A stretch of DNA of 13,916 nt, from positions 1 through 13,916 of the forward strand of contig PCBE01000047.1 in assembly GCA_002731295.1 (NCBI GenBank), read 5' to 3'. The notes under the pieces were generated by a model. That model did no database searches and was not told where the DNA came from. It saw only the letters and a list, made by a program, of their open reading frames with translations. This DNA comes from Acidiferrobacteraceae bacterium (GTDB lineage Bacteria; Pseudomonadota; Gammaproteobacteria; Arenicellales; UBA868). Shown here piece by piece: positions 1,854 through 13,916 of the stretch. Every line of letters begins with the position of its first letter. The first letter of the stretch is position 1. A program made the position numbers and the translations under genes.

Positions 1854-1956
1854 ATGACTTCGATCGATCCATCCTGCCTGATTGACACTAAACGGTACCC
1901 GCTGGACGAACAATTTTCTGTCGAGGGCCAGCTGTTCATTGCCCGAAGCAGGGCAC
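1854..1956 (+). pseudogene. Possible 5' fragment of a 2-oxoglutarate/Fe(II) oxygenase-like gene
   Basis: An ATG at 1854 opens a frame whose first 34 residues read plausibly as protein. The segment IDTKRYPLDEQF (residues 10-21), followed by a helix ending LFIARSRA, resembles the N-terminal signature of HalD-like 2OG-Fe(II) oxygenases, which from memory begin with a D-x-x-R-Y-P-[IL]-D pattern and a downstream R-x-R-A/CRA motif. After about residue 34 the frame turns arginine-rich and loses any family look, and it stops at 2085-2087. If real, it is a remnant left by a deletion. The evidence is one short recalled motif with no clear ribosome binding site, so chance is a serious alternative. Confidence 0.25.
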
Positions 1957-2023
1957 GTTCTCTACACCGTGTGCCTGATGTCAGCCGAACCCGCTCTCGC
2001 TTGGTACCAGAATTGTGTTTCAG

Positions 2024-2037
2024 TACCCGACCGGGTA
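2024..2037. promoter_or_regulatory. Perfect inverted repeat upstream of the GMC gene
   Basis: TACCCG (2024-2029) and CGGGTA (2032-2037) form perfect 6-base arms around a 2-base centre, with extra GGTAC-type half-sites nearby (2003-2008 and 2038-2042). The position, about 50 bases before the GTG start at 2089, suits an operator for a dimeric repressor or activator. No matching regulator gene is in the window. Confidence 0.3.
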
Positions 2038-2088
2038 GGTACAACAGCCAACCCGTGTGGACTTATTTCTGGAGTCGGGTCGGTTGAG

Positions 2089-3606
2089 GTGAACGGCGCG
2101 GATCTGATTATCGTTGGTGGTGGATCCGCGGGTGCGGCACTGGCTGGACTGATTGCCCGGGATCAGAGCGTTAGTGTGCTGTTACTTGAGGCGGGCCCGG
2201 ACTACGGTCACCAGCGTGCAGGTCAATGGCCATCTGATCTGTTGGATGCCCGGGAAATACCTCAGAGCCACCAATGGGGTTATCGGGGACGCAATCACGC
2301 AACACATACGGAACTGTCCACCTATGATCGGGCCCGGGTGATAGGCGGATGTTCTGCACACAATGGTTGTGTCGAGCTCTATGGCCACCGGCGTGATTAC
2401 GATGCTTGGGCAGAACTGGGTAACCCTGGTTGGGACTGGCTGTCGATTGAACCTGCCATAAAGCGAGCCATTGAAATGTTGCGTGTCCGTATACCCGACA
2501 CTGCCGAGCTGACGCCCTTCCAGGCGGCGTTTCTTGAAGGAGCGCAATCATCGGGTGTTCCGCGGGTAGCCGATCTTAACGATCCTGATGACGCGCAGGG
2601 GGTTGCTCCATCGCCAACAAATATTGTGGAAGGAACACGATGGAATTCTGCTTTTGCCTACCTGGATCCGGTTCGCGATCAGTCGAACCTTACCGTGTTG
2701 GGTCATGCGACGGTCCGGCGCCTGCTGATCCATTCTGGGCGGGTGAGTGGGGTCCATGCGAGTGTCGATGGTACTGGTCAGGATATTCATGCGGAGCGAG
2801 TAATCCTTGCGGCCGGTGCGTATGGCTCGCCGACAATTCTGCTGCACTCTGGGATTGGCGATCCCATGGAGCTGGAATCTGCTGGCGTTGGCTGTCACCA
2901 CCCGCTGCCAGGTGTCGGCAAGCACCTAACCGATCACCCAATCATCGACCTCAAGTTGAAGCCGAGCCAAATTCTGATAGAGCAGATGAACGATTTTGCG
3001 GCTTCAGGTTGGTTGCCGGACGAACAGGTGTTGCTCAAAGCACGCAGTACCGGTTGTGTCGAGGCTTTTGACCTGCACCTGTTCGCGGTCAGTCGCCGGG
3101 ACCCGGAAACTGGGGAATGGTCTTTGGTGTTACCCGTCTCGTGCATGGATCCGCACAGTCGTGGCGCGCTCAGACTGTCGGCGTCTGGCCACGCGGATGA
3201 TGATGTGGTGATCGATCATGGATTTCTTTCGGATTCGTCAGGCCATGATCGGGCCGTGCTGGCGGACGGTGTTGAGTTGGGACGACAAATAGCGAGATCG
3301 ATGATGCGCCAGGGACTTATCAGTGACATCAGAAGTCCGCCTGATGACTGTACCGGGCAGGCTTTATTGGATCACATCGATCGGGGTGTCTCGATCTATT
3401 ATCACCCTTCGTCAACCTGTCGAATGGGTCCCGAACAAGATGCGTTGGCGGTCGTAGACGAGGTCGGGGCGGTACGCGGTCTGGATGGATTATTTGTCTG
3501 TGATGCATCGATCTTCCCGACCGTTATGCGTTCTAATACCAACCTACCCACGGTCGCTCTGGCAGAACATATGGCACCGATACTGGGGAATTGGAAAAAA
3601 GACTAA
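2089..3606 (+). CDS. GMC-family FAD-dependent alcohol oxidoreductase (choline-dehydrogenase-like)
   Basis: I start the protein at GTG 2089 (505 residues), because the FAD-binding beta strand and GGGSAGAALAG motif (from residue 10) then sit at the N-terminus as in the family. The longer reading from 1882 adds 69 residues with no family character. An Arg-V-I-G-G-C-S-A-H-N-G stretch (GMC signature 1) and YGHRRDYDAWA follow, then a Rossmann return strand ending AAGAYGSP. The C-terminal catalytic pair is present as HPSSTCRMG (His439) and the NTN motif at 483-485. GMC enzymes oxidise primary or secondary alcohols to aldehydes or ketones with electrons passing to FAD. The substrate here is unknown. 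Proximity to betaine genes makes a quaternary-amine or other osmolyte alcohol tempting, but the overall pattern also resembles MftG-type GMC proteins. Its stop overlaps that of the convergent ligase gene. Confidence 0.85.
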   Translation: MNGADLIIVGGGSAGAALAGLIARDQSVSVLLLEAGPDYGHQRAGQWPSDLLDAREIPQSHQWGYRGRNHATHTELSTYDRARVIGGCSAHNGCVELYGHRRDYDAWAELGNPGWDWLSIEPAIKRAIEMLRVRIPDTAELTPFQAAFLEGAQSSGVPRVADLNDPDDAQGVAPSPTNIVEGTRWNSAFAYLDPVRDQSNLTVLGHATVRRLLIHSGRVSGVHASVDGTGQDIHAERVILAAGAYGSPTILLHSGIGDPMELESAGVGCHHPLPGVGKHLTDHPIIDLKLKPSQILIEQMNDFAASGWLPDEQVLLKARSTGCVEAFDLHLFAVSRRDPETGEWSLVLPVSCMDPHSRGALRLSASGHADDDVVIDHGFLSDSSGHDRAVLADGVELGRQIARSMMRQGLISDIRSPPDDCTGQALLDHIDRGVSIYYHPSSTCRMGPEQDALAVVDEVGAVRGLDGLFVCDASIFPTVMRSNTNLPTVALAEHMAPILGNWKKD

Positions 3607-5705
3607 AGCGCCTCTGGATCCACGCAAAGCAACACATCGGCCGCAGTACAGCCGTCCGGGTGGACAATCAACGGGTTGATGTCGAGTTCATCGAGTTTGG
3701 CACCAAGCTGCTGGGCAAAGGCAACGATGGTACAGATGGCGTCTACAAGCCGGTCAAAGTCTGCGGCTGGCCGATTCCTGAACCCTCGCAGCAGTTTGGC
3801 CACCTGCAGTGAGTGCAATGCTGTAGTAATGTCTTCGCGTGGCGTCGGTAGAAGTACGGTCACACTGTCGGCTACCAGTTCTACCAGTGCACCGCCACTG
3901 GCCAGTGTTAGGGTGTGGCCGAATTGTCCGTCATTGTGAATACCAACCAGCAGTTCCGCGATTGAATTGGCCACCATCTTTTCAACCAGGAAGCACTCTT
4001 GCGATAGGTCTGCCGAATAGTCTTGAACAGCCCGCTGGATTGCCTTTGCTGCATCGCTCACCTGGGTTGCCGACTCAAGGTTTAGTCTCACTGCGCCCGC
4101 TTCGGTTTTATGCGGCAGGTCTGCACTGACTAGTTTCAGGGCCACAGGATAGCCCAGTCGATCAGCCGCAGCCGAGACACCGTCAACTGTGACCAGTTCT
4201 CCAGCCGGAATCGGGATGCCGGCGTTTTCCAGCAGTTTTTTGCCCTGCCATTCATCCAGGGTGATGCTGTTGGCAGTTCGACCCGCAATCGCAAAGGAAA
4301 TTGATCGTGCCTGAGTCAGATGTTTTTTGCGTTGCCTACCAAACACAGTTGCCGCGGCAATTGCCTGTACGGACTCACCAATACCCTGTAGCGGGGCCGT
4401 ATCGTGGTCTTTCAGGAATTGCTGGATCTGGGTATCAAGGTTCTCTGGCAGGCTGCTGCATACTGCGCCCGGGATGCCTGCCTCACGTGTGGCCTGCATA
4501 AATGCGCGCGCGTCGGCCTGGTACAGGTGGCGGTCTTCTTCAAGATGCGGTGGAGGATAATCCTGGACCAGCAACGCCGCATCGTAATCATCCCCGACCA
4601 GTGCGCTGAAGACCGGCTTGAGCTTTTCCTCGTGGCCCCACAGCGGAGTGGTGTAATCCAGGGGATTGGATACGGTTGCAATGGCCGGCAGTAGGCTCTT
4701 GAGCTTGTGACTGGCTGCAGGTGAAGGGGCTTTGAAGTCGATTCCGCACTCCTCTCCCCGGTCAGCCAGCATGGCAACGTCACCGCCGGAGCAGGTAAAA
4801 GCGGCCAGTCGCTGACCAGTTGGTGCCCCGGCGATCGTCAACAGGTTAAGTGTTTCTAGCATCAGGCTAGGTGTGGGTACCCGAACTACACCCAGTCGAT
4901 CGAACAGCGCCTGGTAAAGAGTATCGCTGCCGGCCAGGGACCCGGTGTGAGTCAGTGTAGTGCGGGCAGCAAGATCAGAGCTACCGACCTTGAGCACGAC
5001 CAGCGGTATGTTTCGGTCCAGTGCGTTCAGGGCGGCTTTCGCAAACTGCGGAATGTCTCGAAGCGATTCGAGATAGATACCGAAGGCGGTGACTTCTGAC
5101 CGTGTCAGTAATGCTTCAAGATAGTCTTCGACACCCAGGACAGACTGATTGCCTGCACCAATCACGTAGGAAAAATTTACCGATCGCCGGTTGGTGAGCA
5201 AATATCCAGAGAGCATTCCAGACTGCGAGATGATTGCCGGGCCTCGGGTTACCCGCTGACCACCGTGGCTGTAAGGCCACAGATGGGCACCTTGAATGTA
5301 ATTGAGCAGGCCAAACACATTGGGTCCAACGAGGGCCAAGTCACCGGACACTTCGATCAATTTTTGTTCCAACGCTTCACCATCGACCCCCAGTTCTCCG
5401 AAACCCGCGCTGTAACAGACAACACCACCAGCACCCCGCTGGTGCAGCTGGCTGACTACCGTGGGGACCACGGACCCGGGCACCGCAACAAATGCCGCAT
5501 CGGGTGCTTCCGGAAGATCATCCACACTGGCGAAACAGGGATGTTCGTCCAATTTACGGCGCTTCGGATTGACGCCCCAGATCTGACCGCTGAAGCCACC
5601 GGCTGCACATTGGCGAGAAGCATACAGCGCCTCACTCCCCCCGATAAATGCGATGTGCCTGGGGGCGAGCAGTCGCTGCAGGTTTTTTTTCTGGCTGGGA
5701 GTCAT
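3603..5705 (-). CDS. NDP-forming acyl-CoA ligase (acetate-CoA ligase family, fused alpha-beta)
   Basis: The 700-residue protein has the fused layout of ADP-forming acyl-CoA synthetases: a CoA-binding Rossmann domain (about 1-140), succinyl-CoA-ligase-like flavodoxin domains (about 150-460) and an ATP-grasp domain (about 480-700). The phosphorylated histidine site is intact as THTGSLAGSD (His253), and the second, ATP-grasp-side histidine is seen in LPHKTEAGAV (His532). Such enzymes reversibly couple acyl-CoA formation to NTP hydrolysis to NDP and phosphate. The ATG at 5705 overlaps the TGA of the acyl-CoA dehydrogenase gene (ATGA), implying coupled translation and a shared substrate. From the divergent carnitine genes I infer that it loads CoA onto gamma-butyrobetaine or a related acid, filling the role of AMP-forming CaiC. 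That substrate is unproven. Confidence 0.88.
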   Translation of the reverse strand: MTPSQKKNLQRLLAPRHIAFIGGSEALYASRQCAAGGFSGQIWGVNPKRRKLDEHPCFASVDDLPEAPDAAFVAVPGSVVPTVVSQLHQRGAGGVVCYSAGFGELGVDGEALEQKLIEVSGDLALVGPNVFGLLNYIQGAHLWPYSHGGQRVTRGPAIISQSGMLSGYLLTNRRSVNFSYVIGAGNQSVLGVEDYLEALLTRSEVTAFGIYLESLRDIPQFAKAALNALDRNIPLVVLKVGSSDLAARTTLTHTGSLAGSDTLYQALFDRLGVVRVPTPSLMLETLNLLTIAGAPTGQRLAAFTCSGGDVAMLADRGEECGIDFKAPSPAASHKLKSLLPAIATVSNPLDYTTPLWGHEEKLKPVFSALVGDDYDAALLVQDYPPPHLEEDRHLYQADARAFMQATREAGIPGAVCSSLPENLDTQIQQFLKDHDTAPLQGIGESVQAIAAATVFGRQRKKHLTQARSISFAIAGRTANSITLDEWQGKKLLENAGIPIPAGELVTVDGVSAAADRLGYPVALKLVSADLPHKTEAGAVRLNLESATQVSDAAKAIQRAVQDYSADLSQECFLVEKMVANSIAELLVGIHNDGQFGHTLTLASGGALVELVADSVTVLLPTPREDITTALHSLQVAKLLRGFRNRPAADFDRLVDAICTIVAFAQQLGAKLDELDINPLIVHPDGCTAADVLLCVDPEAL

Positions 5706-6862
5706 GCTCCAAGCGGACGCAATAGAGCGCGGCTGATGATATGCCGCTGAATTTCAGAGGTACCCTCCCAGATTCGCTCCAGACGGGAATCCCGCCACAG
5801 TCGTTCAACGGGCAGATCTTCCATCAGGCCCATGCCACCATAAATCTGAACGGCGTGGTCGGCCAGTCGGTGCAGCATTTCAGAAGCATACAGCTTGCAC
5901 ATGGCTGCATCTGTAGGTGTCATCCGGCCCTGATCTGCTTTGTGTGCAGCGTGCATGACCAGCAGGTCTGCGGCCTGCAGTTCGGTCGCCATATCAGCCA
6001 GTTTGAAAGATGTGCCCTGGAATTTGCCAATACTCTGGCCGAACTGTTTACGATTAGCCGCCCAGTCGATCGATAGTTCCAGCAGACGATCCGCCCGCCC
6101 GCAGCAACCGGCGCCCACCCAGACCCGCCCCATCTTGATCCACTTATCTGCCAGGATCAGACCTTCGCCTTCTTCTCCCAGTACTTGACCGGGTCCGACA
6201 CGGCAGTCATTGAAAGACAGTACAAAGTTCAGATAAGCACGCTGGCTGACACAGCGGGGTCCGCGGACGATATCAAAACCCGGATGTCCGCGGTCAACCA
6301 GAAACGCCGTGACCCGCTTGCGCGGACCGCGATCGGTTTGATCGATTCCAGTCACTGCAAAAACAATGGCGAAATCCGGCAGGATGTGACTGCTGACGAA
6401 ATGTTTTGAACCATTGATGACCCAGTCGTTCCCGACCTTTTCCGCCCGGGTTGCCATGGACAAGATGTCGGATCCGGCACCGGGTTCGGTGATGGCAAAA
6501 CATTCGGTTTTCTCCGCTCGAACGCAGGGGTCCAGATAACGCTCTATCTGGTTGCCCTCGCAGGCCATCAGCAGTTCCGTGGGGCGCCACGCAAAGCCGT
6601 TGAGAGCGTGCGAGACTTTACCGAATTCCCGTTCAATAACCGTAAGACTGGTGTAGTCAAGACCGCCGCCTCCAACCGATTCGGGCAGGTTGGCAGCATA
6701 GAAGCCCATTTCGATTGCTTTACGAGTGATCTGCTGCCCAAGATCAGGGGGTACTTCGCCTTGTTTTTCGACTTCGTTTTCGTGGGGCAGAAGTTCCTCA
6801 GAGACAAAAGCTCGTGCGGAATCAGCCAGCATGCGCTGTTCTTCAGTAAGTTCAAGATCCAT
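5702..6862 (-). CDS. Acyl-CoA dehydrogenase (candidate gamma-butyrobetainyl-CoA dehydrogenase)
   Basis: I choose ATG 6862 (386 residues) because MDLELTEEQ is the usual family beginning and AAGGTG lies 8 bases upstream. A TTG at 6898 would add 12 residues without a good ribosome site. The sequence shows the FAD/substrate motif CFAITEPGAGSD, the middle beta domain, and a C-terminal helical domain with NRKQFGQSIGKFQ and the IYGGMG loop. The catalytic Glu is in IWEGTSEIQ (Glu366). The enzyme class introduces an alpha,beta double bond into an acyl-CoA, passing electrons to ETF. It heads the minus-strand unit and overlaps the CoA ligase by 4 bases. Beside caiD- and cdhAB-like genes, conversion of gamma-butyrobetainyl-CoA to crotonobetainyl-CoA is the simplest inferred role, but sequence alone does not separate this from other short-chain acyl-CoA dehydrogenases. 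Confidence 0.88.
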   Translation of the reverse strand: MDLELTEEQRMLADSARAFVSEELLPHENEVEKQGEVPPDLGQQITRKAIEMGFYAANLPESVGGGGLDYTSLTVIEREFGKVSHALNGFAWRPTELLMACEGNQIERYLDPCVRAEKTECFAITEPGAGSDILSMATRAEKVGNDWVINGSKHFVSSHILPDFAIVFAVTGIDQTDRGPRKRVTAFLVDRGHPGFDIVRGPRCVSQRAYLNFVLSFNDCRVGPGQVLGEEGEGLILADKWIKMGRVWVGAGCCGRADRLLELSIDWAANRKQFGQSIGKFQGTSFKLADMATELQAADLLVMHAAHKADQGRMTPTDAAMCKLYASEMLHRLADHAVQIYGGMGLMEDLPVERLWRDSRLERIWEGTSEIQRHIISRALLRPLGA

Positions 6863-7117
6863 TTGCTTCGCACCTTGATTGTATGGCGCTGTTGACAACC
6901 GCCTCGGAATCAGCGGACAACGGCGCTTGAGAGTTGTGTTCAGTACACCATCTTATTGTGGGATAGCGTCAATTTCCATCGGAGTACAGACGATTTTACG
7001 TCGATGCCCTAGAATCAGCTGCCCCTAGATCAGACCCAGGCGCTATTATCGCGCTAGCTTTAAACTAGAGATACCAGGCTGAGCGACCCCTGAAGGCTGG
7101 TCGCAGTGAGGAAAAAA
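6863..7117. promoter_or_regulatory. Divergent promoter region with clustered CTAG sites
   Basis: This 255-base gap separates the acyl-CoA dehydrogenase/ligase unit from the hydratase-led unit, so it should hold both promoters. Four CTAG tetramers occur at 7009, 7025, 7054 and 7065. The first two lie in an imperfect direct repeat (GCCCTAGAATCAG at 7006-7018, CCCCTAGATCAG at 7022-7033). The last two bound an imperfect palindrome around TTTAAA at 7054-7068. I could not fix a convincing -35/-10 pair. The repeats are candidate binding sites for a shared regulator. Confidence 0.4.
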
Positions 7118-7930
7118 ATGACGGACCGAAGTGAAGAACTGATGGTAGAGCGACGTGGTGCGGTTCTGGAGATCACGTTGAACAGGCCCAAAGTTAACGC
7201 AATAGATTTTACCCTGAGCCGGATGCTCAACGATGCAATCGTGACTCTGCGCGATGATCCAGGTCTGCGCGTCGGCTTGCTGACCGCAGCGGGTGATCGG
7301 GTTTTTTCAGCCGGCTGGGACTTAAAAGCAGTAGACAGTGGCGAGCAGCAGCTGGATAACTGGTGGGAGGCCGATGTTGATCTGCCCGGCGGTTTTGCGG
7401 GCCTCACGGAAATGTGGGATCTCAACAAACCGGTGATCGTGGCTCTGAACGGACTGACCATAGGCGGCGGGTTTGAACTGGCGATGGCCTGCGACCTGAT
7501 CATTGCTGCTGATCACGTCGAGTTCGCGTTGCCTGAAATGCCGTTGGGCATGGTGCCGGATGCAGGGGCCATACAGCGCCTGCCCCGCCGACTCCCTTAC
7601 AACATAGCGATGGAGATGTTGCTTCTGGGTCGCCGGATGTCGGCTGAGGAGGCAGCCCAGCGCGGGCTGGTCAACGCAGTGGTTCCGGCTGACAAACTAA
7701 TGACACGTGCGCGTGAATGGGCGGATCAGATTGCTGATTCGGCACCACTGGCTGTCCAGACCGTAAAAGAAGTGCTGCGCGCGATCGAAGGCGATACGGT
7801 GGAGAATGCCTTTCAGACCATGCGTACCGGAGACTTGCCGGTTTATCGCAAAATGCTCAAGTCAGAGGATGCGAAAGAGGGTGTACGGGCTTTCGTAGAG
7901 AAGCGAAAACCGATTTTTCGGGGTGAATAG
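7118..7930 (+). CDS. caiD: CaiD-like crotonobetainyl-CoA hydratase (carnitinyl-CoA dehydratase)
   Basis: The 270-residue crotonase-fold protein resembles E. coli CaiD closely from memory, not just the superfamily. Shared blocks are RPKVNAID, FSAGWDLKA (oxyanion/CoA site, about 63-71), GGFAGLTE (91-98), GGGFELA (Glu120), FALPEMPLGMVPD (Glu140), GRRMSAEEA, and the tail with SEDAKEG and EKRKP. Glu120 and Glu140 match the two catalytic glutamates of the family. It would interconvert crotonobetainyl-CoA and L-carnitinyl-CoA in the cytosol. ATG 7118 has GAGGA six bases upstream; a GTG at 7106 in the same frame is less likely because it lies within that ribosome site. It is the first gene of the plus-strand unit and ends 13 bases before the carnitine dehydrogenase gene. 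A general enoyl-CoA hydratase is the alternative. Confidence 0.85.
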   Translation: MTDRSEELMVERRGAVLEITLNRPKVNAIDFTLSRMLNDAIVTLRDDPGLRVGLLTAAGDRVFSAGWDLKAVDSGEQQLDNWWEADVDLPGGFAGLTEMWDLNKPVIVALNGLTIGGGFELAMACDLIIAADHVEFALPEMPLGMVPDAGAIQRLPRRLPYNIAMEMLLLGRRMSAEEAAQRGLVNAVVPADKLMTRAREWADQIADSAPLAVQTVKEVLRAIEGDTVENAFQTMRTGDLPVYRKMLKSEDAKEGVRAFVEKRKPIFRGE

Positions 7931-7943
7931 GAATTGATGACAT

Positions 7944-8921
7944 ATGAAGGCTAAAAACATCCAACGCGTAGCGCTGATCGGGGGCGGGGTAATCGGTAGC
8001 GGATGGGCAACACGATGTCTTGTCCACGGGCTGTCGGTGGTCGTGACAGACCCCTCCCCTGCTGCGGCTGAGATGGTCTTGAAGACTGTCGACAGCGCCT
8101 GGCCGATACTCGAAGAGGCGGGCCTCGGCGAAAAAGCTGATCGCAGCAAACTGGAATTTTCCCCTGATATCGAGACGGCTGTTGCGGATGCGGATTTTGT
8201 TCAGGAAAACGTACCTGAGCGCGAGGATCTCAAGATTGCTGTGCACGAAGAGATCGGCCGGCACGCCAAAGGCGACATCGTGGTTGCCTCGAGTTCATCG
8301 GGTTTACTGCCCAGCCGTCTCCAGTCCCGCTGCCGGAGACCGGAGCGACTGGTAATCGGTCATCCCTTTGCCCCGGTCTATCTATTGCCGCTGGTTGAAG
8401 TCGTGGGCGGTGAGCAGACCAGCCTCGAGTTTGTGCGTGCCGCAGGTGCGTTCTACCGCAAGATCGGCATGCGCCCGTTGCATGTCCGAAAGGAAGTCGA
8501 GGCTTATATTGCCGATAGACTCCAGGAGTCGCTTTACCGAGAAGCACTTCACCTCATCAATGACGGTCTAGCGACTGTGCCCGAGATCGACGCCGCCGTT
8601 ACCGGGGGTCCGGGTTTGAGGTGGGCGTTCATGGGAACCTTTATGGCGTGGCATCTGGGTGGGGGGCCAGGCGGTATGCGTCATACTATCGAGCAGTTCG
8701 GGCCGGCCCTTGAACTACCGTGGTCACACATGAAGGCCCCCAAGCTGACTGAGGAACTCAAGAACAGGATTGTGGAGGGCTGCGAGGTCGAATCGGGCGA
8801 TCGAGATTTCAATGAACTGGAACGACGACGGGATCAGTGTCTGGCGGAAATCCAGAAAGTACTGGAGAAATACTGGTACCCACCCGGGCAGGATGGTTGG
8901 CCTGAGATGAGCACAGAATGA
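7944..8921 (+). CDS. cdhA: L-carnitine 3-dehydrogenase (3-hydroxyacyl-CoA dehydrogenase fold)
   Basis: The 325-residue protein has an N-terminal NAD-binding Rossmann domain with G13-x-G15-x-x-G18 (LIGGGVIGSGW) and the ADADFVQENVPER segment, then a helical 3-hydroxyacyl dehydrogenase C-terminal domain. It matches Pseudomonas carnitine dehydrogenase in long remembered blocks: PVYLLPLVEVVGGE, MRPLHVRKEV, REALHLINDG, PGLRWAFMGTF and the QFGPALELPW region. The reaction is NAD-dependent oxidation of L-carnitine to 3-dehydrocarnitine. The catalytic His140 is kept, but the following motif is HPFAPV where most relatives have HPFNPV. ATG 7944 has an AGGA at 7929-7932, rather far away. The gene lies directly between the CaiD-like hydratase and the BKACE enzyme that uses its product. 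Confidence 0.88.
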   Translation: MKAKNIQRVALIGGGVIGSGWATRCLVHGLSVVVTDPSPAAAEMVLKTVDSAWPILEEAGLGEKADRSKLEFSPDIETAVADADFVQENVPEREDLKIAVHEEIGRHAKGDIVVASSSSGLLPSRLQSRCRRPERLVIGHPFAPVYLLPLVEVVGGEQTSLEFVRAAGAFYRKIGMRPLHVRKEVEAYIADRLQESLYREALHLINDGLATVPEIDAAVTGGPGLRWAFMGTFMAWHLGGGPGGMRHTIEQFGPALELPWSHMKAPKLTEELKNRIVEGCEVESGDRDFNELERRRDQCLAEIQKVLEKYWYPPGQDGWPEMSTE

Positions 8922-8981
8922 AGATGCGAAAACAAGTGTTGTTAATGGAGCGGAACTGAAAGCAGTACTAAGGAGAACACC

Positions 8982-9866
8982 ATGGAGATGAACAGAGAAG
9001 TGGTCGTCACTTGTGCGGTGACAGGAGCAGGAGATACGGTTGGCAAGCACCCCGACGTGCCGGTCACGCCGGAACAGATTGCTAACGCGGCAATCGAGGC
9101 GGCGGATGCCGGGGCCGCGATCGTCCATATCCACGTACGTGACCCAGAAACGGGTATTGGCAGTCGTGACGTCGACCTGTTCAAAGATGCGGTGGAGCGG
9201 GTTCGGAACAGTGGTCGGGATGTATTGATCAACCTGACGGCAGGCATGGGGGGTGATCTTGTGGTGGATGATGATGACCCCACCATTGCAGGACCTGGCT
9301 CCGATATGGTCAATGCACAAACACGAATTGCTCATGTCGAATTACTGCGGCCGGATATTGCGACGCTCGATTGCGGCACCATCAATTTCAGCGACAGCAA
9401 CTACATCTACGTGCAGACCCCCAACATGCTCCGCAGTATGGCCGCGCGTTACCAGGAAATCGGTGTTAAGCCTGAGATGGAGGTGTTCGATCTGGGTCAC
9501 CTGAGGTTTGCCAACCAGATGTTGAGCGAGGGACTCATCAATTCCCCTGCCATGTTCCAGATATGTCTTGGAATTCCTTGGGGTGCAGGTGCTGATCCAG
9601 CGACCATGAACGCGATGGTCGGACACCTACCGCCCGATGTGTTCTGGTCTGGATTCGGCATCAGCCGTGCCCAGATGCCGATGGTGGCACAGGCGATGCT
9701 GCTCGGTGGCAACGTACGGGTCGGTTTGGAAGACAATCTCTATCTGGAGAAAGGTGTCTTCGCGAGTAACGGTGAACTGGTCGATAAAGCAGTTCGGATA
9801 ATTCGTGAGCTGGGCGGTCGACCCTGCAGCGCAGATGAAACCCGGGCTAAGCTGGGAATAAAGTAG
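8982..9866 (+). CDS. cdhB: 3-dehydrocarnitine cleavage enzyme (BKACE family, DUF849)
   Basis: The 294-residue protein belongs to the beta-keto acid cleavage enzymes, zinc-dependent TIM barrels that condense a beta-keto acid with acetyl-CoA and split it into acetoacetate and a shorter acyl-CoA. For dehydrocarnitine the products are acetoacetate and betainyl-CoA. The zinc ligands are visible as HIH (His49 and His51, in VHIHVRD) and Glu250 in [16 protein letters not shown] near the N-terminus, [10 protein letters not shown] (84-93), LDCGTINF and [18 protein letters not shown] agree with the Pseudomonas carnitine-pathway member. Neighbouring cdhA-like sequence fixes the substrate with fair confidence, since BKACE members vary. 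The ATG has AAGGAG at 8970-8975, 6 bases upstream; a second in-frame ATG at 8988 has poorer spacing. The 60-base gap from the dehydrogenase gene fits one operon. Confidence 0.88.
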
Positions 9867-9901: not shown

Positions 9902-10636
9902 GTGGACAGCTCAGCTGGCCGTCTGTTGTTCGGCAGTAGCGGTCGCACTTTGGTCAAATGCTGGCATTACTTCGTTGATGAACAGTTCCAGCGAGCGTTT
10001 TTGTGCAGCCTGACCGAGGCCAAAACTTGCACAATAGGTGATTTTGTTGCCCAGTTGAAGGAATTGCTGGATTTTCTCGAAATCTCGAAACTGACCCTTG
10101 TCGGGTTGTCGATGGGTGGGGTCATTGCACAGGGGTTTGCGGCTGATGCACACGAGAGGCTTGAAAAGCTGATACTGATGAACACCATGTACCGGCGAAC
10201 GGATGCGGAGCTTAAAGGGGTTCGCAGCCGCCTCAAGATCACCGTCGATAAAGGACTCAAACCTGTTGCCGATTTGGCGCTTGACCGCTGGTTTGATGAC
10301 GCATTCAGGTGGGCTAACCCAGATGTTGTTAGCAGCATAAGAAATCGCTTGATATCCAACGACCTTACGGCTTACTCCACGGCTTACGGGATATTTGTGG
10401 AAGCGGACCGGGAAATCGGTGCAGCACTTAAGCAGGTGCGATGCCCCACACTGGTGATGACCGGTGAGCTCGACACGGGTTCGACCCCGGAACTGGCTTA
10501 TAGAATGGCCGCGGATCTAGGCGACGCACAGGTCGTCATCTTGCCCGGCTTGCGCCATTTGGCACCTCTTGAAGACCCGCCGCAGGTCAACCGGGTGTTA
10601 CTGGAGTTTCTCGGTATTGATTTACTACCTAGCTGA
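9902..10636 (+). CDS. Alpha/beta hydrolase, probably 5'-truncated (PcaD-like)
   Basis: The open frame of 244 codons has a good alpha/beta-hydrolase body from about residue 44. TIGDFVAQLKELLDFLEI leads into the nucleophile elbow GLSMGG (Ser70), then a helical cap, acid Asp191 (TGELDTGSTPE) and His219 (GLRHLAPLEDP). The catalytic triad is complete. The first 43 residues are not family-like. They lack the expected early strands, the HG oxyanion motif and the D-x-R-G-H-G loop, and they are encoded by DNA that reads on the other strand as a monooxygenase tail. The only start is a GTG at 9902 whose upstream GGGAG lies in a hairpin. I infer a pseudogene or a fusion with an overprinted N-terminus. 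Next to a PcaC-type gene, a beta-ketoadipate enol-lactonase-like or related ester hydrolase is a reasonable ancestor. Confidence 0.65.
   Translation: MDSSAGRLLFGSSGRTLVKCWHYFVDEQFQRAFLCSLTEAKTCTIGDFVAQLKELLDFLEISKLTLVGLSMGGVIAQGFAADAHERLEKLILMNTMYRRTDAELKGVRSRLKITVDKGLKPVADLALDRWFDDAFRWANPDVVSSIRNRLISNDLTAYSTAYGIFVEADREIGAALKQVRCPTLVMTGELDTGSTPELAYRMAADLGDAQVVILPGLRHLAPLEDPPQVNRVLLEFLGIDLLPS
9911..10030 (-). pseudogene. C-terminal remnant of a luciferase-like flavin monooxygenase
   Basis: Read on the minus strand, 10030 to 9911 encodes about 39 residues and a TGA stop. The core QKRSLELFINEVMPAF is the kind of C-terminal helix seen in LLM-class flavin-dependent oxidoreductases, where an R-S-[LM]-x-L-F-x-x-E-V-[MI]-P-x-[FL] pattern closes the protein. 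Codon choice is coding-like (GGC CTC GGT, CTG GAA CTG TTC ATC AAC GAA). Upstream of 10030 on this strand the frame becomes the antisense of the hydrolase gene, so the first roughly 300 residues expected for the family are missing. The join coincides within a few bases with the point where hydrolase similarity begins. The family call rests on a short recalled motif. Confidence 0.55.
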
Positions 10637-10675: not shown

Positions 10676-11056
10676 ATGGATAAAGCGCTATTTGACAAAG
10701 GACTGGCCACACGTCGGGACGTTCTCGGCAAAGAATACGTTGACAATGCACTGGCGAATGCCAGTGAGTTTGCCCAGGAGTTTCAGGAACTTCTCACGGA
10801 ATACTGCTGGGGTGCCGTATGGGGCGATGAAACGCTTGATCGAAAGACGCGCAGCATGCTTAACGTGGTGATGCTTGCGGCGCTTAACCGGATGCACGAG
10901 TGGGAGCTTCATTTTCGCGGGGCCATCGTCAATGGTGTGTCGCGTGACGAGCTCAAGGCCATTTTGAATCAGATCGCCATTTATTGCGGCGTGCCGGCCT
11001 CTGTTGAATGTCATCGAATTGCAAAGCGTGTTTTTGCCGAGCTCGATGGTGACTGA
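10676..11056 (+). CDS. Carboxymuconolactone decarboxylase family protein (PcaC-type)
   Basis: The 126-residue all-helical protein has the length and layout of 4-carboxymuconolactone decarboxylases. It has a leader with TRRDVLGKEYVDNAL, then FQELLTEYCWGAVWG, LDRKTRSMLNVVMLAALNR, the His79-containing ELHFRGAIVNG and the hallmark helix NQIAIYCGVPA (98-108). It lacks the CxxC peroxidatic pair of AhpD-type relatives, so a decarboxylase-like rather than redox role is favoured. In aromatic degraders pcaC often adjoins pcaD, which matches the hydrolase just upstream, yet no other protocatechuate gene is in view. A role on another lactone or beta-keto acid is therefore possible. The strong ribosome site suggests good expression. 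It is followed 14 bases later by the esterase gene. Confidence 0.85.
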   Translation: MDKALFDKGLATRRDVLGKEYVDNALANASEFAQEFQELLTEYCWGAVWGDETLDRKTRSMLNVVMLAALNRMHEWELHFRGAIVNGVSRDELKAILNQIAIYCGVPASVECHRIAKRVFAELDGD

Positions 11057-11070
11057 CGAGCTATGCTAGC

Positions 11071-12306
11071 GTGAAGACTATAGTTGCTGAGAATCCGGCC
11101 TCGCTTGGGTTTTCACAAGAAAGGCTGGAACGTATCAGTGTCTGGATGGATCGTTATGTTAATGCCGGTAAGCTGCCCTGTGCGTTGACACTGATCTGTC
11201 GTCATGGTGAGGTCGTGTTCGCCCGCAGTGTTGGCCAGCGACACCTGGATTCAGGTGGATCGATCGAGATGGATTCGATCTTTCGGATCTTCTCGATGTC
11301 CAAGCCACTGACCTCGGTTGCTGTGATGATGTTGTATGAGGAAGGAAATTTTCAACTCGATGACCCGATATCCCGATTCATTCCGTGCCTCGCCGATCCC
11401 AGGGTGATGGTTTCGAATGTCGACGGACAGTTACAGACTCGCCCGGCAAGCGGTCCAATTACGATCAAACAACTGTTGACGCATACCGCAGGATTTACCT
11501 ACGGCTGGAACGAAGAATTTTCACTGGGTGAAATCTACCAACAGGCCGCTGTCGATTTTTGGCCGAATAGCGGGGTGCTCGCCGACGTTGTGGAGCGGGT
11601 ATCGGAGTTGCCATTACTGTTTGAGCCGGGGAGCCGCTTCGGATACGGTATTTCAACCGATATATTAGGACGGTTCATCGAGGTGATTTCAGGACAGTCA
11701 CTGGCTGCCTTCATGCAGCAGCGCGTTTTTGAACCCTTAGGGATGACCGACACCGGGTTCTCAATCACGCCTGACAAGCTGGATCGTTTGACAACACTCT
11801 ATGAAGCAACAGGCGATAGCAGTACGCTCGTCCCAGTTGATACTCCCGGATCAACGCTTTTCGCTGCAGAAAACGTTACCACGTTTTCTGGCGGTGGCGG
11901 ATTATTGTCGACACCGGCGGACTACCTGCGATTTGCCGAGATGCTCCGCTGCCGGGGGGAGTTCAATGGTGTGCGTCTTCTGGGTTCACGGACTGTAGAT
12001 TTCATGACTCAGAATCACCTGCCCGGCGACCTGGCACAGATGGGTGATATAGACTTCGATGGCTGGAGTATTGCAGGTGAAGGTGTAGGCTTCGGCTTGG
12101 GATTTTCTGTGGTACTTGATTCGGTCCGGGCACGCACACTGTGCTCTGTGGGAGAATTCTCCTGGGGTGGCATAGCCAGTACCGTGTTTTGGGTCGATCC
12201 GATGGAAGATATCACCGCGATGTTTCTGACCCAGCTGACACCTTCGAGTACTTATACATTAAGACGCGAGCTTCGAGTACTGGTCTATCAGGCCCTGGTC
12301 GACTGA
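11071..12306 (+). CDS. Beta-lactamase-related serine hydrolase (family VIII esterase-like)
   Basis: This 411-residue protein has the class C beta-lactamase/penicillin-binding fold of family VIII esterases. The S-x-x-K motif is SMSK (nucleophile Ser75, Lys78), preceded by IFRIF. The tyrosine motif is FGYGISTDILGRFIEVISGQS (Tyr192), and the third motif is the WGG in FSWGGIASTVFWVDP rather than the KTG of true beta-lactamases. REPGM-type EPLGMTDTGF follows the Tyr motif as in the family. There is no signal peptide, so a cytosolic esterase is more likely than antibiotic resistance or cell-wall work. The substrate is unknown; a carboxylic ester or amide feeding the acyl-CoA genes is possible. The start is GTG at 11071 with only a weak GACGAG upstream. 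The ATG at 11064 closes after three codons. Confidence 0.85.
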   Translation: MKTIVAENPASLGFSQERLERISVWMDRYVNAGKLPCALTLICRHGEVVFARSVGQRHLDSGGSIEMDSIFRIFSMSKPLTSVAVMMLYEEGNFQLDDPISRFIPCLADPRVMVSNVDGQLQTRPASGPITIKQLLTHTAGFTYGWNEEFSLGEIYQQAAVDFWPNSGVLADVVERVSELPLLFEPGSRFGYGISTDILGRFIEVISGQSLAAFMQQRVFEPLGMTDTGFSITPDKLDRLTTLYEATGDSSTLVPVDTPGSTLFAAENVTTFSGGGGLLSTPADYLRFAEMLRCRGEFNGVRLLGSRTVDFMTQNHLPGDLAQMGDIDFDGWSIAGEGVGFGLGFSVVLDSVRARTLCSVGEFSWGGIASTVFWVDPMEDITAMFLTQLTPSSTYTLRRELRVLVYQALVD

Positions 12307-12358
12307 GGCTTAACGACTTGATGGCTACATGCGCTGGATCGGGGGCAAGAGACCAACG

Positions 12359-13531
12359 ATGAACAATCAGCAGAACCAGACCGACCCTGCAGCGCTGCCG
12401 CTGCAGGGCATCCGAGTCGTGGAACTGGGTACCAGTGTCGCCGCACCGTACGGTACCTGGATCCTGGCGAGCCTCGGCGCAGAAGTCGTCAAGGTGGAGC
12501 GTCCGGGCAAAGGAGATGACGCGCGCTACTGGGGGCCACCATTCTGGGAAGAGACCTCAACCATGTTTCATACCTACAATCGGGAAAAGCGCTCGTTAGA
12601 AGTAGACCTGAAGGATCCAGAGCAGGTTAAAAAGTTGCGGCGTTTCATTGCCGACGGCGTCGACGTGGTGGTCCAGAATCTCAGAGCGGGTGTTGCCGAC
12701 AGCGTAGGCCTAGGTGCTGAACAGTTGACAACAGAACTGCCTGGGTTGATCTATTGCAATATTCGGGCGTTTGGAGCCGCCGGGCCGATGCGGGAACAGC
12801 CTGGGTACGATCCTCTGATGCAGGCTTTTTCGGGGTTGATGAGTGTCAGTGGTGAAGCGGGTCGCAAGCCTGTGCGCGTGGGTACCTCAATAGTTGATAA
12901 GGGCGCCGGGATGTGGTGTGCGATTGGCGTGTTGTCCATGTTGAATGCCCGTCAGCAGACCGGTCGAGGCGGTGTCGTCGATACGTCATTGCTCGAAACT
13001 GCACTGGCATGGATGGGCTTTCATGTCGCCGATTTTCGTGCAACTGGGGAAGCACCCAAGCCGCAAGGATCCGGTGTCCGTGGAATTGCGCCTTACCAGG
13101 CCTATGAATGCGCTGATGGCTACCTCGTTGTCGGTGCAGCCAATGACCGATTGTTCAGGAAACTGGCTGAAGCACTGGGGCATCCCGAATGGTCGGAGGA
13201 CGAGCGGTTTGCAACCAACCCTGACAGGTTCGGCAATCTTGTTCAGCTCAACGAGTTGCTAGAACCACTGTTTCGCAATGCCGGCCGCGAACACTGGCAG
13301 ACGATGTTTAACGAACTTGGGATTCCCTGCGCGCCGCTACAGCAGCTCGATGAGGTGCTGGCACACGAGCAGGTTGAGGCGCTGGGCATTATTCAACGTG
13401 CCGATGAAGGCGCAATGCCACTCATCGGGCCGCCTGTAAGTTTTGACGGTCATCGCCCATCCGCCCGGCACCGGGCACCGGCGTTGGGTGAGTACAATGA
13501 TACCTATTCGGATGAGGTTTCTGACGAGTAA
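12359..13531 (+). CDS. CaiB/BaiF-family (type III) CoA-transferase
   Basis: The 390-residue protein shows the family layout: GIRVVELGTSVAAPYGTWILASLGAEVVKVERP (split here only as a landmark near residues 17-49), then DARYWGPPF, NREKRSLEVDL, and VQNLRAGVADSVGL. The catalytic Asp180 lies in GTSIVDKGAG, and GRGGVVDTSLLETAL follows. The C-terminal part (IAPYQAYECADGYLVVGAANDRLF) completes the ring-forming fold. Type III transferases move CoA between carboxylic acids through an aspartyl-CoA anhydride. In this setting it could exchange CoA between carnitinyl- or betainyl-CoA and gamma-butyrobetaine, as CaiB does between trimethylammonium acids, but the family includes many substrates. I choose ATG 12359 over ATG 12329 because the shorter form begins nearer the conserved GIRVVEL strand; neither has a strong ribosome site. 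Confidence 0.85.
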   Translation: MNNQQNQTDPAALPLQGIRVVELGTSVAAPYGTWILASLGAEVVKVERPGKGDDARYWGPPFWEETSTMFHTYNREKRSLEVDLKDPEQVKKLRRFIADGVDVVVQNLRAGVADSVGLGAEQLTTELPGLIYCNIRAFGAAGPMREQPGYDPLMQAFSGLMSVSGEAGRKPVRVGTSIVDKGAGMWCAIGVLSMLNARQQTGRGGVVDTSLLETALAWMGFHVADFRATGEAPKPQGSGVRGIAPYQAYECADGYLVVGAANDRLFRKLAEALGHPEWSEDERFATNPDRFGNLVQLNELLEPLFRNAGREHWQTMFNELGIPCAPLQQLDEVLAHEQVEALGIIQRADEGAMPLIGPPVSFDGHRPSARHRAPALGEYNDTYSDEVSDE

Positions 13532-13538
13532 AACAACC

Positions 13539-13916
13539 GTGCCTGAATTCCACACCATCGAGCTGTCGATCAGAGACGATATTGCGCTGTTGACCCTGAA
13601 TCGACCGGATTCAGCGAACGCGATGAATACGCAAATGGCCGAGGAAATGCTGGCCGTACTGACCGGTCCCGAGGCGCAAGCTACCGCCGCAAGGTGCATT
13701 ATTCTGACCGGTACCGGCGGCCGAGCGTTCTGCGCCGGTGCGGATCTTAAGGAACGAAAAGGAATGACCGATACGGTCTGGATACAACAGCATGCGGTAT
13801 TTGAAACACTCGGTTTGGCGCTGATGGACCTTCAAGTGCCTTTGATCGGGGCGATTAACGGCGCCGCATTTGGCGGCGGAATGGAGATGGTGCTGGCCTG
13901 TGATTTTGCGTATGCC
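13539..13916 (+). CDS. Enoyl-CoA hydratase/isomerase family protein (partial, runs off the window)
   Basis: An open frame from GTG 13539 continues without stop to the last base, giving 126 codons of a crotonase-fold enzyme. Visible are TLNRPDSANAMN (19-30), the oxyanion/CoA loop FCAGADLKERKGM (64-76) and GGGMEMVLACD with Glu116. FCAGADLKER is the wording typical of methylglutaconyl-CoA hydratase (AUH/LiuC) types, so it differs from the FSAGWDLK of the CaiD-like protein at 7118. The second half, including the usual second catalytic glutamate, lies outside the window. The GTG lies 7 bases after the transferase stop. An in-frame ATG at 13512, overlapping the transferase by 20 bases, is an alternative start. 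It is probably cotranscribed with the transferase. Confidence 0.8.
   Translation, partial: MPEFHTIELSIRDDIALLTLNRPDSANAMNTQMAEEMLAVLTGPEAQATAARCIILTGTGGRAFCAGADLKERKGMTDTVWIQQHAVFETLGLALMDLQVPLIGAINGAAFGGGMEMVLACDFAYA

Follow-up and report, generated by a model that had tools for sequence, protein, structure and literature searches.

A Carnitine-Type Beta-Oxidation and BKACE Locus in an Arenicellales Genome: A Candidate Paralogue of the Gamma-Butyrobetaine Module

Gene Content of the Locus

The window is the whole 13,916 bp stretch of DNA analyzed here (G000:C54:1-13916). It belongs to a metagenome-assembled genome (MAG) of the order Arenicellales (G000; 2.5 Mb, 126 contigs, 81.5% complete). 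The system of interest is a five-gene core consisting of an ADP-forming acyl-CoA ligase (ACDL), an acyl-CoA dehydrogenase (ACAD), a CaiD-type crotonase, a carnitine-dehydrogenase-type 3-hydroxy acid dehydrogenase (CDH) and a BKACE protein (Table 1). All five genes are long open frames at the coordinates given, and an earlier note, made from the letters alone, had already placed the ligase and ACAD on the minus strand and the other three on the plus strand. Their presence in one locus is the gene set of an aerobic gamma-butyrobetaine (gBB)-to-betaine module. The ACAD and ACDL genes overlap by 4 bp, and the ACAD start (MDLEL) is common to relatives. The earlier note had also proposed a divergent promoter. 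The intergenic gap exists, but a sigma-70 consensus scan of it found no site and the promoter was not retained.

Table 1. Features of the window, core genes first.
Feature	Position (bp)	Strand	Comment
ACDL	3603..5705	-	700 aa; CoA-binding, Succ_CoA_lig and ATP-grasp_5 domains; predicted acid activation
ACAD	5702..6898	-	Likely start ~6862; predicted 2,3 double bond formation
Divergent intergenic region	~6863..7117		Between ACAD and CaiD-type genes
CaiD-type crotonase	7106..7930	+	Likely ATG start ~7118, common to relatives
CDH	7944..8921	+	Motif GHPFAPVY, not GHPFNPVY
BKACE	8982..9866	+	PF05853 match
LLM flavin monooxygenase stub	9914..10081	-	Residues 302-358 (final 57) of the intact G081 gene
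PcaD-like alpha/beta hydrolase, 3' part	10032..10636	+	5' part gone in the same deletion as LLM; listed ORF start 9902 spurious
CMD/PcaC-like protein	10676..11056	+	Conserved neighbor
Serine hydrolase, beta-lactamase fold	11071..12306	+	AcmB-like, 189 bits (cut-off 550)
Family III CoA-transferase	12329..13531	+	Best match succinate-glutarate CoA-transferase, 257 bits (cut-off 750)
Second crotonase (ECH2), beginning	13539..13916	+	Start approximate; second ACAD comes next in the contig

Pfam and NCBIfam were concordant at the family level for the core proteins and the Pfam assignments were firm, with BKACE scoring 329 bits against PF05853 (gathering cut-off 24.8). At the equivalog level the CDH scored 407.7 bits against the L-carnitine dehydrogenase model NF005471, about 6 bits below the cut-off of 414. 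The best equivalog of the CaiD-type protein was crotonobetainyl-CoA hydratase NF002936, at 313 bits against a cut-off of 500. This protein keeps both of what we take to be the crotonase Glu positions (GGGFELA and LPEMPLG).

Conservation in the Order

An order-wide sample of 109 genomes was searched for full-length CDHs of at least 65% identity, which gave 28 genomes with G000 counted. Three additional CDH matches were fragments. The surroundings were examined for the 27 other genomes. The whole block, ACDL-ACAD facing CaiD-CDH-BKACE, was found in the same arrangement in 24 of the 28 genomes, which makes a chance arrangement very unlikely, and the synteny check suggested in the earlier note was borne out. 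Two of the four exceptions were truncated at contig ends (G086 and G083) and two had a different context (G037 and G040). Among the matches listed, the closest protein relatives had source names including Arenicellales, Gammaproteobacteria and Proteobacteria MAGs, in part from Tara Oceans sets.

CDH Motif and Phylogeny of the Core Proteins

The CDH motif reads GHPFAPVY in all 28 genomes and there is no HxxN at this site. The change from HPFN to HPFA removes an Asn three residues past the His that is presumably catalytic. Database matches to the window CDH numbered 7,890. Of the 120 listed, 119 had HPFA and the remaining one had no motif. All five solved relatives that were aligned have Asn at the HPFA position, as do the thioesterase-type CDHs wherever the script recognized the motif. 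The exceptions at this position were His in a Staphylococcus CDH and one paralogue, Ser in L089 and L090, and Val in a relative with 46% identity. L090 (576-2031), from a Rhodospirillaceae MAG, encodes a basal CDH (GHPFSPVY) followed directly by a 4HBT_2 thioesterase gene. In the substrate domain the window CDH has GGPGGMRH, compared to GG[DEN]xGMRH in most others aligned.

The window-type CDHs formed one clade (support 100/99; 30 sequences including two basal relatives) in an 84-sequence tree, which omitted the duplicates L033, L049, L052 and L088, many Pseudomonas and Burkholderia loci and any sequence shorter than 280 residues. The clade was recovered again in a second tree of 58 chosen CDHs (99/97, 14 sequences). 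The CaiD and BKACE trees were built from chosen subsets of 33 and 51 sequences, respectively. The window-type CaiDs were also one clade (100/96, 13 sequences), sister to the CaiDs of Aminobacter and Parasedimentitalea (98/95), whose loci also carry LLM, aldehyde dehydrogenase (ALDH) and RidA genes. A Dongia CaiD lay at the base of this combined group (95/99), and most other CaiDs fell in another group (92/92). An insertion, QLDNWWE, is common to the window CaiD and those of Aminobacter and Parasedimentitalea and is missing from most of the other CaiDs in the alignment. The window-type BKACEs formed one clade (100/100, 13 sequences) among the BKACEs of carnitine-type loci. The window BKACE is 58-65% identical to those of Pseudomonas and Burkholderia carnitine-type loci, with a GAGDT stretch in both.

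In a phylogenetic test of the kind named in the earlier note, CDH and CaiD thus form separate clades away from most enzymes of carnitine-type loci. BKACE branches among carnitine-type enzymes, in a clade of its own whose exact place is weakly supported.

Second CDH Loci in the Same Genomes

A second locus with CDH and ACAD genes, this time with HPFN, was present in 11 of the 28 genomes (G077, G078, G086, G087, G089, G090, G097, G099, G101, G105, and G107). ACDL was seen in nine of these loci and CaiD in nine. By gene content and motif they look more canonical than the window-type locus. Their CDHs group separately, in one clade, and the reading of them as plainly canonical gBB loci was rejected on this ground. 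Other carnitine-type second loci were found in seven more genomes. These were a fused CDH-thioesterase with ACAD (G083 and G084), BKACE with a rhizobial-type CDH (G088, G092, and G103) and BKACE with CDH (G037 and G040). The counts exclude second matches in G098, G100 and G102.

In the window's own genome a CDH-type gene with 52% identity to the window CDH stands in a row with ACAD and a FadB-like gene (L010 12842-17229, G000:C21). No BKACE gene was found in that stretch.

The LLM Module and the Deletion in the Window

An LLM-class flavin monooxygenase gene adjoins BKACE on the opposite strand in 17 of the 28 genomes. Where LLM is present, ALDH accompanies it in 16 of 17 genomes and RidA in 12 of 17, the remainder being cut by contig ends. 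The ALDH of the relatives is betaine-aldehyde-dehydrogenase-like (TIGR01804, 498 bits, cut-off 669). LLM is present in 17 genomes, a stub in two (the window and G090), absent in six and undetermined in three.

In the window the LLM stub continues into the remaining 3' portion of the hydrolase gene. The assembly lacks 3,321 bp relative to G081 at this point, and at most 13 bp are common to both edges. The stub and the deletion adjoin BKACE and had been overlooked in the earlier note. The G090 stub is different (L046; 71 residues), with no ALDH, RidA or hydrolase gene in the stretch. The difference in stub endpoints argues for separate, real losses. Two different stubs together with the absence of the gene from six more genomes suggest that LLM was lost repeatedly.

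A related operon (L078-L082) has the order flavin reductase-ALDH-LLM-hydrolase-CMD, with AA_synth and transporter genes. It is carried on plasmids of Rhizobium, Agrobacterium, Shinella, Azospirillum and Thalassospira, with no carnitine-like core in the stretch shown, and adjoins SSADH and aminotransferase genes in Rhizobium and Agrobacterium. A class-wide search for LLM gave matches in three of 274 genomes. Of these, the L202 stretch resembles the rhizobial operon and L201 is short. Trigonelline or pyridine ring cleavage by LLM was considered in view of known pathways and the rhizobial operons. The literature searches listed no usable support and the idea was set aside as a guess. By analogy a Baeyer-Villiger role for LLM is possible, for which a section of PMC12239570 offers a precedent.

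Comparison With Known Systems

A scan of named genomes covered 80 of 572 confirmed loci. The sample is biased by this limit and by the use of GHPF[AN]PVY as one of two search patterns. BKACE-CDH-thioesterase without ACAD, ACDL or CaiD was found in 57 of the 80 loci, mostly from Pseudomonas and Burkholderia kin. The window CDH is 52-58% identical to those of the Pseudomonas and Burkholderia carnitine-type loci. These have no ligase, ACAD or CaiD, and have a linked thioesterase and HPFN.

All six genes (BKACE-CDH-thioesterase-ACAD-ACDL-CaiD) were present in eight of the 80 loci, and Kiloniella has a locus of this type. The same gene set was found on plasmids of Rhizobium sp. Kim5 and Paracoccus methylovorus, where the thioesterase is fused to CDH. 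The C-terminal part of the Rhizobium fusion is 4HBT_2. These six-gene loci presumably act on gBB. They have the same five enzyme families as the window, the ADP-forming ligase included. The window differs in having no linked thioesterase, in its separate clades, in HPFA and in its divergent gene order, and no GlxA-type regulator or transporter was found among the ten window proteins scanned.

The closest CaiD, ACAD and ACDL among the named loci compared were those on plasmids of Aminobacter sp. SR38 and Parasedimentitalea marina, in loci with ALDH-LLM-CaiD-HADH-BKACE-ABC-ACAD-ACDL and genes for RidA and a hydrolase. Identity to the window was 69-71% for CaiD, 59-63% for ACAD and 47-50% for ACDL, and LLM, ALDH and RidA are present as in the window's relatives. 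The dehydrogenase is of another subfamily (44%) and the ABC transporter is of the polyamine type. Flavin reductase, acetoacetate-CoA ligase and electron transfer flavoprotein genes are present in the Aminobacter locus, and sarcosine oxidase genes lie alongside in Parasedimentitalea.

The enterobacterial Cai system also has a CaiD-type hydratase, E. coli CaiD being 51.6% identical to that of the window, and an ACAD. CaiC is AMP-forming. The window has an ADP-forming ligase in its place, has CDH and BKACE in addition, and has no CaiB equivalog, and membership of the Cai system was rejected on this last point. A marine SAR11 island has a CDH and BKACE pair like that of the window, with a gBB dioxygenase instead of the CoA-dependent set, according to the portion of PMC12421898 that describes it.

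The conversion of gBB to L-carnitine in an aerobic strain has been described before. In the passages of a 2007 review that deal with HK4, a strain capable of aerobic growth on L-carnitine, this conversion is called "analogous but not identical to fatty acid degradation." The same passages mention HK13, a mutant of HK4 in L-carnitine dehydrogenase (PMC2131755). These passages conflict with Table 2 of the same review, which puts HK4 under gBB hydroxylase. Among titles and opening lines of abstracts in the open-access literature none pointed to the window-type variant, most subscription journals being outside the search.

CoA Release

The product of CaiD is a CoA ester, whereas CDH and BKACE act on free acids. 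A thioesterase lay within the stretch in 72 of the 80 loci of the named-genome scan. Among the 28 window-type loci the count was zero, although several of these stretches are short. The "continuous" path from gBB to betainyl-CoA and acetoacetate drawn in the earlier note was therefore too strong.

An unlinked 4HBT_2 thioesterase gene of G000 (G000:C49; L187 7380-7880) encodes a protein 45% identical to one of a canonical locus, a candidate enzyme for releasing CoA in trans. Of 23 genomes searched, 22 had a match at 35% identity or more. The G000 gene adjoins parA, parB and gidA, and similar neighbors were seen in four other stretches, giving this setting in five of nine stretches (L187, L189, L191, L193, and L194). 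Other settings were seen in L188, L192 and L195. The neighbor gene names in L189, L191, L193 and L194 are the author's reading of the sequences. Because of this housekeeping setting in G000, the unlinked gene was not accepted as proof of the last step. Release by the ADP-forming ligase running backward is an attractive candidate, as it would recover ATP.

Proposed Pathway and Alternatives

By its genes the window locus is a variant of the known aerobic gBB-type module. The oxidative gBB-to-betaine route proposed in the earlier note was right in kind, the gene set being that of the Kiloniella, Rhizobium and Paracoccus loci, but it was not new, as a route of this kind from gBB to L-carnitine had been described for HK4. 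The window pathway reads most naturally in the oxidative direction, and a chain from gBB to betaine is plausible.

From sequence we infer all of the reactions, the substrate and the feeder role given below, the order of chemistry following from the enzyme families. The starting acid would have four carbons and, on C4, a methylated amine with a positive charge, and the ligase would turn it into its CoA ester. ACAD and then the CaiD-type hydratase would convert this to the 3-hydroxyacyl-CoA. Candidates for the release of CoA are the reversed ADP-forming ligase, the CoA-transferase or an unlinked thioesterase. CDH would oxidize the free 3-hydroxy acid to the 3-keto acid, which BKACE would convert with acetyl-CoA to acetoacetate and an N-methylated glycyl-CoA. 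In most relatives LLM, usually with ALDH and RidA, probably makes the four-carbon acid from a larger nitrogen compound. In the window genome this feeder module would have been lost through the deletion.

On balance, the core is judged to be a carnitine-like beta-oxidation and BKACE module, a paralogue of the known gBB-to-betaine module, for which a close cationic analogue of gBB is a more likely substrate than gBB, although confidence in this is modest. The kinship of BKACE points to a cationic substrate. The separate clades, HPFA and the second loci make a gBB analogue somewhat more likely than gBB itself.

Several points weigh against this assignment. The CDHs of the second loci are in their own clade (100/100), which only L138 of the canonical sequences joins (97/99), and confidence was lowered because of this. 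No BKACE gene was found in the second-locus stretches (L165-L174 and L179). The second loci thus do not prove that the genomes process gBB at another site. The search gave no such locus in the window's genus (G000 and G079-G081, all incomplete genomes), where the module could simply serve gBB. The pairing of the window-type BKACEs with canonical BKACEs is weakly supported (82/72), with the out-group in the same unresolved fork. As to the feeder module, the Aminobacter-type dehydrogenase differs, so the LLM link is no proof of one pathway. G083 and G084 have ALDH and no LLM gene, and the 3,321 bp deletion could be an artifact of assembly. The core of G077 and G078 lacks LLM and adjoins a gene for an ABC binding protein of family 5. 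This protein is 41% identical to its counterpart in the Rhizobium locus, and its presence is consistent with gBB uptake. The linked binding protein was not accepted as proof of such uptake, as equally similar ones are encoded at unlinked sites in other genomes.

The strongest alternative is a plain aerobic pathway from gBB through L-carnitine to glycine betaine, in which the sequences have drifted and the thioesterase has moved elsewhere. This is a realistic possibility, given less than even confidence. The matching gene set, the narrow shortfall of the CDH against NF005471, the branching of BKACE among carnitine-type enzymes, the thioesterase matches in nearly all genomes searched and the absence of a second canonical-looking locus in the window's genus are all consistent with it. 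It is opposed by the distinct clades and the HPFA change, by the second CDH-ACAD loci, by the housekeeping setting of the G000 thioesterase and by the association of the window-type locus with the LLM module. A beta-oxidation and BKACE route for an acid that has no permanently charged amine, with the CaiD, CDH and BKACE likeness reflecting ancestry only, is improbable, as BKACE keeps the stretch common with the Pseudomonas and Burkholderia carnitine-locus enzymes and branches among them, even though the Asn near the catalytic His is lost, the CDH substrate-domain residues are altered (GGPGGMRH) and the charge of the substrate differs among BKACE groups in the part of PMC4922564 that compares them.

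The paralogous module with a gBB analogue may also be the second half of a longer, Arenicellales-type pathway. In this tentative scheme LLM, ALDH, RidA and hydrolases would degrade a nitrogen compound to the cationic four-carbon acid, and the carnitine-module paralogue would take the acid to acetoacetate and N-methylated glycyl-CoA. The first module would have been lost repeatedly, with some strains living on the intermediate alone.

Relatives of the window-type CDH were readily found in metagenome collections among the matches listed, and the source names of some are carnitine 3-dehydrogenase or L-carnitine dehydrogenase. Such labels misassign carbon and nitrogen flux if the true substrate of the window-type module is another compound. 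The substrate question can be tested directly, given the clade, the single-residue HPFA mark and the occurrence of the locus both with LLM and without it.

Other Genes of the Window and Genome

Further conserved neighbors of the core in the relatives are the PcaC-like CMD protein, the second crotonase, MmgE/PrpD and a DAO-type FAD oxidase. The family III CoA-transferase of the window scored 79 bits against L-carnitine CoA-transferase (CaiB), for which the cut-off is 413, and that assignment was rejected. Elsewhere in G000 a BKACE gene lies beside a 3-hydroxyacyl-CoA dehydrogenase gene (L011 9069-11049, G000:C79). This BKACE scored 554 bits against 3,5-dioxohexanoate:acetyl-CoA acetone transferase, exceeding the cut-off of 430. 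A GMC oxidoreductase gene is located at 1882-3606 of the window, where G081 has a gene for a HalD-like 2-oxoglutarate (2OG)-Fe oxygenase. A HalD remnant of 54 residues (67%) is present at the 5' end of the GMC oxidoreductase gene.

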